Shown piece after piece: positions 50,813 through 55,892 of a stretch of 64,000 bases of DNA. This DNA comes from Methanosarcina flavescens (GTDB lineage Archaea; Halobacteriota; Methanosarcinia; Methanosarcinales; Methanosarcinaceae): NCBI RefSeq assembly GCF_001304615.2, contig NZ_CP032683.1, positions 1,364,001 through 1,428,000 on the forward strand. Direction: 5' to 3'. Within the stretch, counting starts at the first letter, position 1. Each line of letters begins with the position of its first letter. The notes under the pieces were generated by a model, which did not search any database, was not told where the DNA came from, and saw only the letters and a list, made by a program, of their open reading frames with translations. The position numbers were made by a program, and so were the translations under genes.

Positions 50813-52984
50813 GTGCTAGAGTATTTTAACGTGATTTTGTGGTTTGTATTTATAGAAATACTGGGCTTGATTTCCATTCCTCTTGCCGGAATAGTTGGGA
50901 ACAGGCTTGCTGACAGAGGATATTCTGCAGCCAGAACTCTGGGAATAATGCTTGTTACTTACATGACCTGGTTTTTTTCGTATAGATGGGGCTTTAACCG
51001 GAGTACGATCCTGATTTCAGTTCTTTTGCTTTGCCTTATTTCGGGAATAGTTTATAGAAAACGAAGTATTTTACCGGAAAAGAAGGTAATGCTGTCAAAC
51101 GAGCTTGTATTCACAGCAGGATTTTTTTTCTTCCTGTTTGTACGCATGCATCTCCCTGAGATTTACAGGCACGAAAAATTTATGGACTTTGCCTTTCTGA
51201 ACGCAGTGATGAGAACTGCTTCTTTTCCCCCGGCAGATCCTTGGTTTGCAGGTGGCTTCCTCGACTTTTATTACTACTTGGGATACCTTTCAGTAGGAGT
51301 TCCGGGAAAATTACTTTCTGTCGAGCCTTCAATGCTTTTCAATCTGGCTATTGCACTCACTTTCGCTCTATCTTTCAACCTCCTTTTCGGTTTCGGATAT
51401 AATATTTCTCATGGAAAAGCCAGGTACGGAGTCCTGACCGCCTTATCTGTGATTCTGCTCGGAAACCTGCAGGGACTTAAAGAGTTCCTTACCCTGTATA
51501 TTGTCAAACAGCCAATCTCAATGGGATACTACTGGAGCAGTTCGAGAGTTATTCCCTATACGATAAATGAATTTCCTTACTTCAGTTTCATACACGGGGA
51601 CCTGCATTCCCATGTACTTGCAATTCCCTTCCAGCTGGTGGTACTTACTTTCCTTTTGAATATATATTTAAGAGAAGACAGTAAATGGGTCTTTGAAAAC
51701 GTGCTAGCACTCCTGATTTTTTCAGTATCTCTTGGCTTCTTATTCCCTTCCAATTCCTGGGATTTCCCAGTATATTTCAGCCTGACGCTTGCAGTTATTT
51801 TTGCTTTTTACTGCGGGTGTTATATTCGCAATAAAAACTTACCCGGCTCCTTTACAGGCTTTTTGGGAACAATTTTTCTGGTTTCCGTTCTCAGCCTTCT
51901 TCCTTATTTGCCCTTTTACCTGACATTTAAACCCCAAGCTGCAGGTGGATTTGACTTTGTTCCGCCGGAACTTCGAACAACAATTAAAGAGTTTCTGATC
52001 CTGTTCAGCCTTTTCCTCTTTCTGACTTTCTCGTTCCTTATGACCAAGCTGGAATCCAGACAAAAAGTACAATATTTCATTCTGTGGATAGGAATTACTG
52101 CAATTCTCGCCAGAGAATTATCTATTCCTCTGCTTGTAATTCTTCTCCCCTTGTTTGCCCTCTCGCTGTATTCATTCCTTAAAGATCTTCCGGAAAGGAG
52201 CAGTGCAGGATTTGTATTCCTTCTTATAGCAGCAGCTGCATTTGTAGCACTTCTCTGTGAAGTTATTTTCCTTGATGACCCTATTCCAGGGAAATTTGCT
52301 CGTATGAATACAGTTTTCAAATTTTATATGCATTTATGGATTTTTCTGGCTATTGCAGCTTCCTATTCGTACTCTCAACTCTATCTTCGTTACAGGGCAT
52401 TATCACCCGGAAATATCTTTTTTTCGACTAAGCGAGGTTATGGAAAAAAAGTCTGGATGATCTCGCTTGTGCTCCTTGTTCTCTCATGTAGCGTTTTTCC
52501 TGTGGTAGCAACCGTCACAAGAATTGAAGATATGAATGCAAAACCTACTCTTGATGGCATGGAATATATGAAAAAACTGGACAGGGGAGATTACGACGCC
52601 ATAAGATGGATGCAGGAAAATATCAAAGGAACTCCTGTAATTCTTGAGGCTTCCGATGTTAACAGCAGTTATCAGTATACATCACGTGTCTCGGCAAATA
52701 CCGGGCTTCCAACAGTTATCGGTTGGACAAGGCATGAGCGGTTCTGGGGAAGAGACCATGAAGAAATCAGGACAAGACTTGAAGATGTAAATACCACTTA
52801 CAGTACAGTCAGTGAAAAAAAAACTCTTGAGCTTATGAATAAATATAACGTAAGCTATGTGTATATCGGTAAACTTGAAAGGCAAATGTATGACATAAAG
52901 ACGGATAAGTTCGAGGATGAAACTTATTTTGAACCGGTTTACCAGGGCTCAGTCCGGATTTATAAAGTAAAAAACAAGTTCTGA
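50813..52984 (+). CDS. DUF2298 (TIGR03662-type) polytopic membrane protein
   Basis: This 723-residue protein has about 15 membrane segments. The YMTWFFSYRWGF helix, KFMDFAFLNAVMRTASFPPADPWFAGG and FLDFYYYLGYL blocks, FPYFSFIHGDLHSHV and RMNTVFKFYMHLWI are DUF2298 hallmarks. The acidic MDF and HGDLH loops suggest a GT-C-like glycosyltransferase. The family tends to accompany TIGR03663 proteins, as at 39894. The start is GTG 50813 after GGGAAGAG. Confidence 0.8.
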   Translation: MLEYFNVILWFVFIEILGLISIPLAGIVGNRLADRGYSAARTLGIMLVTYMTWFFSYRWGFNRSTILISVLLLCLISGIVYRKRSILPEKKVMLSNELVFTAGFFFFLFVRMHLPEIYRHEKFMDFAFLNAVMRTASFPPADPWFAGGFLDFYYYLGYLSVGVPGKLLSVEPSMLFNLAIALTFALSFNLLFGFGYNISHGKARYGVLTALSVILLGNLQGLKEFLTLYIVKQPISMGYYWSSSRVIPYTINEFPYFSFIHGDLHSHVLAIPFQLVVLTFLLNIYLREDSKWVFENVLALLIFSVSLGFLFPSNSWDFPVYFSLTLAVIFAFYCGCYIRNKNLPGSFTGFLGTIFLVSVLSLLPYLPFYLTFKPQAAGGFDFVPPELRTTIKEFLILFSLFLFLTFSFLMTKLESRQKVQYFILWIGITAILARELSIPLLVILLPLFALSLYSFLKDLPERSSAGFVFLLIAAAAFVALLCEVIFLDDPIPGKFARMNTVFKFYMHLWIFLAIAASYSYSQLYLRYRALSPGNIFFSTKRGYGKKVWMISLVLLVLSCSVFPVVATVTRIEDMNAKPTLDGMEYMKKLDRGDYDAIRWMQENIKGTPVILEASDVNSSYQYTSRVSANTGLPTVIGWTRHERFWGRDHEEIRTRLEDVNTTYSTVSEKKTLELMNKYNVSYVYIGKLERQMYDIKTDKFEDETYFEPVYQGSVRIYKVKNKF

Positions 52985-53094
52985 GAGTTTTCGGTTTTTA
53001 GGGGGGACCTTAAACTCGGACTCATATAAAAATCAGGATATACAAACCGTAAATTCGCTCCTAATACTGGAATGAAAATAGAGAGGTTTTATCC

Positions 53095-54834
53095 ATTACC
53101 AGCGTTTCGGTAGTTTTACCAGCTTATAACGAGGCAGCGAATATCGAAAAGGCTGTCTTTGCTACAGCGGAAACACTTTTTAAAATAACTGATCATTTTG
53201 AGATCATTATAGCAGAGGACGGCAGCACAGATGGTACGGACAGAATAGCTTCCGAGCTCTCGGAAGAGTACGCTTATGTTGTCCACCTGCATTCGGATAA
53301 GCGGCAGGGCAGAGGAAAAGCCCTGAGCAGGGCATTTAAAATCGCTTCAGGAGAAGTCCTCTGCTATATTGATGTGGATCTTGCAACGGATATGAAATAT
53401 CTGGAAAAATTGGTCAGGGCTGTGAGTAAGGATGGCTATGATTTTGCCACAGGCTCGAGAATGATGCGTGAAAGCGATGCAAAAAGGCCTTTTAAACGGG
53501 AGTTCGCAAGCAGGGGATATAATTTTCTGGTGAGGATCTTTTTGCATTCAAAGCTTTGTGATCATCAGTGCGGATTTAAGGCTTTCAGAAGAGAAGCTCT
53601 TTTTGAACTTCTCGATGATATCGAGAATGAACACTGGTTTTGGGATACAGAAGTACTCGTAAGAGCCCAGCACAGAGGATACAGGGTAATAGAGTTTCCT
53701 GTTTACTGGAGGCATGGAGGATCAAGTAAGGTTAATCTGGCAAAAGATGTCAAAGGAATGGGATCAGAGATATTCCGGCTCTGGCGGGAACTCTCATTCC
53801 CACTTATCGTTTCAGGAAAAAGGAAGGTCTTTCTTGCAACTTGCCTTGCGATTCTGATCCTTGCATTTGTTGCGACTTTCTTGGGCGCGTCCGATATTCT
53901 GGAAAATGTGAGAGCTGCCTCTTTCAGGACTCTGGCGTTCGCTTCTCTGGTGTACTGCATCTCCTGGCCTTTAAGGGGAGTGCGTTTTCAGCAGATCCTT
54001 AAAAGACTCGGAAGCGAGTACGGACTTGGTTTCCTTATAGGCAGCATTTTTATCAGCCAATCAGCAAACGTAGTTCTCCCCGCACGCATAGGAGATCTAA
54101 GCAGAATGTATATCCTGAAAAAAAGCAAGAATCTTGCCTTTACAACAAGTTTCTCCTCACTGACCGTAGAAAGGGTCTTTGATATAGTTGCAATTACTTC
54201 CATAGCAATACTTGCATCTTCAGGTGCAGCGTCCCGTTTTGAGCTTGCTTCATGGATGAGCTCCCTGATAAAGCTATCCGGGCTTGCAGTAGTGCTTTTC
54301 TTCTCAATTCTTTTTATTGCATCTTTTAGGGAAAGCCACGCTAAAACAACACTGGAAAGAGAAAACTTCCAGAACGGGCTCTCTGGCAAGATAAAGGGTT
54401 TTGCATCAACTTTTCTCCACCAGATGAGCGTTGTTGCAGTACGACCTGGCTCATTTCTGGCCGTAACCGCATCCTCTCTTCTTATATGGGGAATAGATAT
54501 ATTCACCTGCCTTCTGGTGCTTAAAGCTTTTCCGATAGCAGGAGTAGATGTTTCCTCAACGTACATGATATCTCTTATTTTCCTGGCTGTAGCTCTCGGA
54601 AATATAGCAAAAACCTTCCCAATAACACCTGGTGCTATAGGAACATACGAAGTTGCTCTTACTGCAGTTTTTGCTCTTGGGGGAATCGAGCCGAAAATAG
54701 GGTTTACGGTTGCCGTGCTTGATCATATTATAAAAAATTCAATTACTCTTATTGGAGGCGGCTTTGCCCTCTCGGGGCTCGGATTGAGGTGGAAAGAAGT
54801 ACTTTGCACGGATAAGGATATTTTGAAAGGATAA
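53095..54834 (+). CDS. GT2 glycosyltransferase fused to a flippase-like (LPG synthase TM) domain, probable ATT start
   Basis: Residues 1-230 are a dolichol-phosphate-mannose-synthase-like GT2 domain: SVVLPAYNEAANIEKAV, IAEDGSTDGT, GRGKALSRAF, YIDVDLATDM and QCGFKAFRREAL. The remaining 330 residues have about 8 membrane segments of the UPF0104/LPG-synthase-TM type (VLPARIGDLSRMYILKKSK, ITPGAIGTYE). No ATG, GTG or TTG exists in frame before residue 94, yet the conserved start needs the region from 53095. An ATT lies seven bases after GAGAGGT, so it is the likely initiator. It probably makes and moves lipid-linked sugars. Confidence 0.8.
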   Translation: MTSVSVVLPAYNEAANIEKAVFATAETLFKITDHFEIIIAEDGSTDGTDRIASELSEEYAYVVHLHSDKRQGRGKALSRAFKIASGEVLCYIDVDLATDMKYLEKLVRAVSKDGYDFATGSRMMRESDAKRPFKREFASRGYNFLVRIFLHSKLCDHQCGFKAFRREALFELLDDIENEHWFWDTEVLVRAQHRGYRVIEFPVYWRHGGSSKVNLAKDVKGMGSEIFRLWRELSFPLIVSGKRKVFLATCLAILILAFVATFLGASDILENVRAASFRTLAFASLVYCISWPLRGVRFQQILKRLGSEYGLGFLIGSIFISQSANVVLPARIGDLSRMYILKKSKNLAFTTSFSSLTVERVFDIVAITSIAILASSGAASRFELASWMSSLIKLSGLAVVLFFSILFIASFRESHAKTTLERENFQNGLSGKIKGFASTFLHQMSVVAVRPGSFLAVTASSLLIWGIDIFTCLLVLKAFPIAGVDVSSTYMISLIFLAVALGNIAKTFPITPGAIGTYEVALTAVFALGGIEPKIGFTVAVLDHIIKNSITLIGGGFALSGLGLRWKEVLCTDKDILKG

Positions 54835-54963
54835 AGCAGGATAAATTCAGGATAGCGTGAACTGAGTCTGACAGTCTTAAAGATGAAGTTCGGAGAGGCA
54901 ATTGTAAACTTAACACAAAGAATTAAAGCAATAACCACATGTTTTATTCGAACTGGTGGTCAA

Positions 54964-55329
54964 GTGGAAGAAGTATCTGAGGAAAAAATAATAAAAGTAA
55001 AGGATGCATATTGTCTTCCGGAAGACGTTTTTAGTGCCGTGCATACAGCAATCAATGAAGAAATGGAAGAAATTGTCAGCCTGTTTAAGGTGCTTGCAGA
55101 CCCGACGCGCCTCAGGATTCTCAGGGCTCTTGAAGTCCAGAGCCTCTGTGTCTGTGTCCTTGTAGAGTGCACGGATCAAAAGCATTCAGCACTTTCCTAT
55201 CATCTTAAGCTGTTAAAAGAAGCAGGCCTGGTAGACTCTCGAAGAGAACGCAGTTTCCAGATCTACTACCTCACGGAGTTCGGGTGCTTACTCCTGAAAC
55301 ACATTGAAAAATATTTTGAAAAAACTTGA
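54964..55329 (+). CDS. ArsR-family transcriptional regulator
   Basis: This 121-residue winged-helix regulator has LFKVLADPTRLRILRAL, then SLCVCVLVE, then HSALSYHLKLLKEAGLVDSRRE. The CVC in the recognition-helix region resembles the metal site of arsenic-type ArsR proteins, so a metal(loid) or thiol signal is possible. GTG 54964 behind GGTGGT gives a normal length; an ATG at 54883 would add 27 residues. No obvious target gene lies beside it. Confidence 0.82.
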   Translation: MEEVSEEKIIKVKDAYCLPEDVFSAVHTAINEEMEEIVSLFKVLADPTRLRILRALEVQSLCVCVLVECTDQKHSALSYHLKLLKEAGLVDSRRERSFQIYYLTEFGCLLLKHIEKYFEKT

Positions 55330-55469: not shown

Positions 55470-55892
55470 TCAGATTTTTTCGTTTGACGCTACCGTTGTA
55501 AGCTTTGAGAACTTTACCCCTTTGAGGGCCATTATAGCTTCAGCAAGCTCCTTAATCTCTTCACCGTCTCCATCCAGGACGATTACTTCAAAGCAATTAT
55601 CGTGATCAAGGTGGATATGCACTGAGGATTTTATCAGGTGAGAGTAGTTGTGCTGGATGTCTGCAAGGGCATTTGAAAGCCCTCTTTTGGTGTGATCGTA
55701 AATAACCGCAACCGTTCCGACACGGTGGCCTTTAATATCACCCATCCATTCGTAATAGGAAATATAACTCCTGATAGCGTCCCTTATGCCTTCCGAACGG
55801 GAAGAATAACCTCTTTTTTCGATAATCTCATCAAATTTATTCAGAAGGGTACCGGGAAGGGAAACCCCTATCCTCATCAATTCTGTTTCCAT
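55470..55892 (-). CDS. nikR: NikR-family nickel-responsive regulator
   Basis: This 140-residue protein combines an N-terminal ribbon-helix-helix ([33 protein letters not shown]) with a C-terminal ACT-like nickel domain. The ligands are visible in [20 protein letters not shown] (His-x-His and Cys), plus a His in QHNYSH. NikR represses nickel uptake when nickel is replete. ATG 55892 follows GGTGATACG. Nickel demand fits the hydrogenase and F430 chemistry of methanogens. Confidence 0.88.

Follow-up and report, generated by a model that had tools for sequence, protein, structure and literature searches.

The precedents for conserved AUU-type starts found in print are bacterial. The Escherichia coli genes infC (encoding IF3) and pcnB start with AUU (as cited in PMC1780047), and their weak initiation is described as limiting or regulating expression. 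For lepA of Borrelia burgdorferi and Bacillus licheniformis, the same source reports an inferred AUU start, with no other start restoring the full-length protein. In Streptomyces, the GTC start of sigR is repressed by IF3, according to PMC5472188. Non-AUG starts are also reported in chloroplasts (PMC9845219), and Ribo-seq in Methanosarcina mazei assigned ATG, TTG, GTG, and CTG starts to unannotated small open reading frames (ORFs) (PMC11456600). In the titles and abstracts searched, a scope outside which most subscription journals lie, no conserved AUU or AUA start was found for an archaeal gene.

Within a 64,000-nucleotide stretch of Methanosarcina flavescens DNA (the window), a GT2-flippase fusion gene appears to begin with ATT (Table 1). 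It resembles infC and pcnB in that AUU would start a chromosomal gene; those examples are bacterial and experimental, whereas this start is archaeal, belongs to a glycosyltransferase, and is one that we infer by comparison only. The lepA case is similar in its inference of AUU but is named for two species in its source, versus 29 genomes and further families here. Like sigR as described in print, the gene may keep a non-canonical start for protein-level control; sigR differs in using GTC, in encoding a bacterial sigma factor, and in having a demonstrated mechanism.

The first-pass annotation had recognized a GT2-flippase fusion from the sequence, and all three profile matches agree, each scoring above its curated cutoff. 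PF00535 (E value of 3.3e-31; 108.9 bits versus a cutoff of 23.3) places the first part of the protein in the GT2 family, and the second part belongs to PF03706 (2.7e-44; 152.3 versus 33.4) and to TIGR00374, flippase-like (1.3e-29; 103.7 versus 43.2). "Flippase-like" is the annotation name of the PF03706/TIGR00374 part, and lipid flipping is putative. The dolichol monophosphate mannose synthase of P. furiosus (5mlz) has the GT2 domain in common (E value of 4.1e-19, residues 3 to 213), but the match ends before the second part (LPG_synthase_TM/TIGR00374). The ORF spans 53065 to 54834, with a TAA as its upstream boundary, and the upstream gene ends 110 nt before the ATT, leaving the start without overlap. 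Downstream lie an ArsR-type regulator (54883 to 55329, plus strand) and a NikR-like regulator (55470 to 55892, minus strand).

Table 1. Features at and around the GT2-flippase fusion gene, in window coordinates
Feature	Position	Strand	Basis
Upstream gene, TIGR03662 Chlor_Arch_YYY/DUF2298	50813..52984	+	Profile match
TATA-like stretch tcatataaaaat, possible own promoter	53022..53033	+	By eye
In-frame TAA, closes frame 5' of gene	53062..53064	+	Sequence
Out-of-frame ATG, 13-codon ORF ending in TAG, overlaps start	53072..53113	+	Not conserved in ATA orthologues
Shine-Dalgarno-like GAGAGGT, 7 nt before ATT	53081..53087	+	Sequence
ATT, well-supported start codon	53095..53097	+	ATT/ATA in 29/29 Methanosarcina orthologues with the same N terminus
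GT2-flippase fusion gene, 579 codons from ATT to stop	53095..54834	+	Sequence, domain profiles, orthologues
GT2 domain PF00535, residues 15-179	53107..53601	+	Profile match
GTG, first in-frame canonical codon, rejected as start	53374..53376	+	Sequence, Ka/Ks
LPG_synthase_TM PF03706/flippase-like membrane domain, residues 257-564	53833..54756	+	Profile match

After the TAA, the frame reads TAC TGG AAT GAA AAT AGA GAG GTT TTA TCC ATT ACC AGC GTT TCG GTA GTT TTA CCA. Reading the sequence upheld the earlier claims that no ATG, GTG, or TTG lies in frame between this stop and SVVLPAYNEA and that an ATT stands seven bases behind GAGAGGT in the frame closed by the TAA. A start at GTG 53374 would cost the first 93 residues.

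A protein search covered 59 genomes including the window's own, 30 of them Methanosarcina, and 29 of these 30 have the gene with a readable N terminus; in G017, the best match is merely distant (E value of 1e-12). An AUH codon (AUU, AUA, or AUC) holds the start position in all 29 orthologues (ATT in 14, ATA in 15; ATG, GTG, or TTG in none), and 26 of them have no in-frame canonical alternative upstream. The three exceptions have an ATG 24 nt before ATA (loci L008 and L026) or a TTG 39 nt before ATT (L034). Because ATT or ATA recurs in 28 other genomes, a sequencing error hiding an ATG, which the first-pass annotation had named as a possible refutation, is ruled out. In G020, the gene is split over two contig pieces, L028 without the N terminus and L035 with it. 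Stops further down break the G019 orthologue (L034/L213, G019:C1:186642-188405) into several frames. Several of the orthologues have a GT2 domain identical to that of a row in the named collection, as L010 does to L211 (M. spelaei), which identifies the genus as Methanosarcina.

Ile-codon variation alone (ATT, ATA, ATC) is also expected of an internal Ile codon, and the variation in the group is of this kind only. Translation would then begin further upstream, either at an unrecognized codon or at ATG 53072 with a subsequent -1 frameshift; a -1-frame ATG lies 23 nt upstream in the window and in 14 others, and L008 and L026 have an in-frame ATG. We regard an internal Ile codon as very improbable. 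In ten of the 29 orthologues, the 45 nt before AUH contain no ATG in any frame, and inspection by eye showed no shared slippery site. The codons between the Shine-Dalgarno (SD) sequence and AUH are not conserved but vary by group (TTA TCC, GTT CGT, GCT TGT), the common reading running from AUH on. In six orthologues (L003, L007, L014, L022, L024, and L025), a stop directly adjoins the SD, so that few codons are left upstream of AUH. Distant homologues, moreover, have ATG or GTG at the homologous codon. The frameshift from ATG 53072 was rejected as not conserved.

Ka/Ks was compared for ten orthologues chosen from 28. From just after the ATT to the first canonical codon, it was 0.06 to 0.11 in all ten comparisons (0.04 to 0.10 in the following 131 codons), which indicates that this stretch is translated. 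The alignment to solved GT2 enzymes (5mlz, as above) starts at residue 3 counted from ATT. A decayed gene, a sequencing error, or a short protein made from GTG 53374 would fit with that GTG being the first canonical codon, and the stops in the G019 copy indicate that loss does occur. We nevertheless consider these explanations very improbable indeed: 28 other genomes present the same state, purifying selection acts before the GTG, and a start there loses much of the GT2 domain. As far as sequence comparison can establish them, the position of the start, its conservation, and translation of the N terminus are demonstrated. The comparative tests across Methanosarcina orthologues thus back the proposal that ATT 53095 is a genuine start codon, which we regard as well supported; the observation is confirmed as real, conserved, and unusual.

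The case for an AUH start is weakest at the SD. In 16 of the 29 orthologues, GAGGT precedes AUH by 7 nt, and L026 has AGGTG at a spacing of 5 nt, for a five-base match in 17; GAGG occurs at 10 nt in 6, and another 6 (L004, L005, L007, L008, L009, and L011) have no four-base match. The 12 orthologues outside the five-base set read GGGGT or GGGGG at the site. In our reading, these are weaker sites that pair through wobble; GGGGT, the sequence in the six with no four-base match, pairs only with a G-U wobble. Within the ATT group, some orthologues have only a weak match.

The GTG inside SVVL was also considered as a start and rejected. It is present in 12 of the 29 orthologues, including three with ATA (L008, L013, and L014), and GTA or GTT occupies the site in 17, including the window. 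The site lies 22 nt behind GAGAGGT.

The first-pass annotation had proposed checking homologues for ATG at this codon; such homologues are present, but outside the Methanosarcina orthologue group. Among the distant rows read for the homologous codon (L036 to L058), ATG falls exactly there in eight (L040, L045, L048, L052, L053, L054, L055, and L058) and GTG in one (L041). In the named set, which holds the best 80 of 576 relatives and is not a census, rows from ANME-1, ANME-2, Syntrophoarchaeum, and GoM-Arc1 have ATG at the homologous codon. The Methanosarcinaceae fusion L227 has GTG there, reading MTEVSVILPAYNEA. In most Methanoperedens rows, the sequence resembles GGAGG-N5 to 7-ATA; 20 of the 28 rows in this clade were scored AUH and 8 canonical, with L249 among the latter only because a GTG falls in its SD-like stretch. 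Family f2 (with ANME-2 HR1) has ATT one codon earlier.

GT2-only paralogues in Methanosarcina are mixed, with ATT in L036 to L039, whereas L043 has an ATG three codons upstream. In another GT2-only paralogue, L047 (G014, about 1070 to 1790), no canonical or AUH codon follows AAGGTGG, which counts against the AUH reading; its start candidates would be ACG or TTT. Six ANME-2c-like rows carry ACG, with ATT or ATC as the next codon; these GT2 genes (L050, L051, L261, L263, L266, and L267) read AGGTGATGRACG before the ATT or ATC, with no in-frame canonical codon after the stop.

For the family as a whole, removal of 24 near-copies from 135 rows left 111 distinct rows, of which 62 have AUH (ATA in 36, ATT in 26); in 43, a canonical codon lies no more than eight codons away, and 6 are other. 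Among the 62 AUH rows, nine do carry a canonical codon, but only at a greater distance upstream, and one runs to the end of its contig. A quick tree of 134 rows places AUH in two groups and requires at least six changes between the AUH and canonical states. Throughout Methanosarcina and in many Methanosarcinales relatives, this codon has remained AUU or AUA; that the non-canonical start is conserved genus-wide and in relatives is what the earlier reader could not see.

Three tRNAs with a CAU anticodon were read and assigned by their stems as an initiator (L337), an elongator with an intron (L357), and Ile2 (L323); two Ile(GAU) tRNA genes were also read. L337 combines CAU with A1-U72 and an anticodon stem whose loop end has three G-C pairs, making it an initiator-like Met tRNA. 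No initiator with an Ile anticodon was found among the 150 of 228 first-look tRNA candidates that were scored; the simplest account is thus that the normal initiator reads AUH despite a third-position mismatch. In the mechanism that we propose, the SD would place the 30S subunit, and the ordinary initiator Met-tRNA (CAU) would initiate at AUU with a mismatch confined to the third codon position. Decoding would presumably be as Met, giving a protein that begins Met-Thr-Ser-Val-Ser-Val-Val-Leu-Pro, with TSVSVVLPAYNE expected after the start Met.

The strength of an ATT start has reportedly been measured in E. coli. The figure is about 0.3% of ATG initiation (Hecht 2017, as cited in PMC10666635). 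Weak initiation of this kind would keep the membrane-bound glycosyltransferase, whose substrate may be of the polyprenyl-phosphate type, scarce. The most natural interpretation is that selection maintains the weak initiation. To our knowledge, archaea lack IF3, and aIF1 is a candidate proofreader in archaea. In Sulfolobus, aIF1 is reported to favor discrimination against non-canonical starts (PMC6237735). Alternatively, then, start-codon proofreading by aIF1 could gate synthesis of the glycosyltransferase. We consider it highly likely that the gene is intact and has an authentic ATT start at 53095, that the SD places initiation at AUU, and that the weakness of this start most plausibly limits or gates synthesis; we infer a regulatory role as the purpose of the weak start.

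Three surveys addressed other genes with AUH starts. The first covered 400 kb, with 173 genes tested and 4 of 177 untestable. It flagged 16 of the 173, and a further 7 were late in the window's genome only; most flags resembled conserved leaders or antisense frames, and one was cbiG. This survey missed the GT2-flippase gene because of the GTG in SVVL. The second, on the same 400 kb and requiring AUH plus an SD, flagged 11 of 177 genes, among which the GT2-flippase gene and cbiG stood up by eye. The third set 800 kb of the window's genome against 800 kb of G002 and flagged 10 of 312 conserved genes. Seven were dropped by eye as conserved leaders or antisense frames, and three, the GT2-flippase gene, hps, and cbiG, were kept because coding-type synonymous change precedes any canonical codon. 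To be detected in this survey, a gene must have at least 15 columns ahead of the first canonical codon in either genome, so that other AUH genes will have been missed.

The hps gene (G000:C1:1651886-1653173, minus strand, outside the window; loci L291 to L320) encodes a bifunctional hexulose-6-phosphate synthase (NF005442, 749.9 bits, above the cutoff), with the start context GAGGTGAT-ACT-ATA. Across 30 Methanosarcina genomes, its start codon is ATA in 15, ATC in 13, ATT in 1 (one codon later), and ATG in 1; L312 and L318 have an additional canonical codon far upstream. L315, the single locus with ATG, has it at the same codon and provides a natural control.

For cbiG (G000:C1:1551439-1552027, minus strand, outside the window; loci L142 to L170), the top match, cobalt-precorrin 5A hydrolase, falls below the curated cutoff (236 of 281 bits). 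Its start context is CAGGAGGTC-N6-ATA, with ATA in all 29 loci and no in-frame canonical codon nearby; none was found in G011 among the 30 genomes searched. The end of a cobM/cbiF-like gene (for which TIGR01465 is the best match, a fragment below the cutoff) runs over this ATA; an ATG there would change a Tyr codon to Cys, so that the ATA may be forced. The GT2-flippase gene, unlike cbiG, does not overlap its upstream gene. Judged partly by eye, the AUH start appears to be common to at least one, and probably two, other genes.

These comparisons also bear on whether the weakness of the start has any function. An adequate SD might yield enough protein from AUH, with ATG not being favored. Consistent with this, several Methanoperedens relatives and L227 carry canonical starts, hps has ATG in 1 of 30 genomes, and the ATA of cbiG is possibly forced by its overlap. 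However, ATG occurs in none of the 29 GT2-flippase orthologues though ATA to ATG is a single transition, and AUH is kept in 62 of the 111 distinct family rows. We therefore regard a functionless weak start as rather unlikely, and a start whose weakness limits or gates synthesis as the preferred reading.

More tentatively, it is possible that the Methanosarcinales keep a small set of genes with AUU, AUA, or AUC starts (GT2-flippase, hps, and cbiG; 3 of 312), for which proofreading by aIF1 would provide graded control, a counterpart of bacterial control by IF3. If so, gene finders limited to ATG, GTG, and TTG would cut off or miss such N termini. The genus-wide AUH start itself implies that the N termini of AUH-start genes are misannotated wherever only these three codons are allowed. 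Methanosarcina is a genus with working genetics, and with ATT, ATA, ATG, and GTG all occurring naturally at a single homologous position, the use of weak start codons for control in archaea becomes testable.
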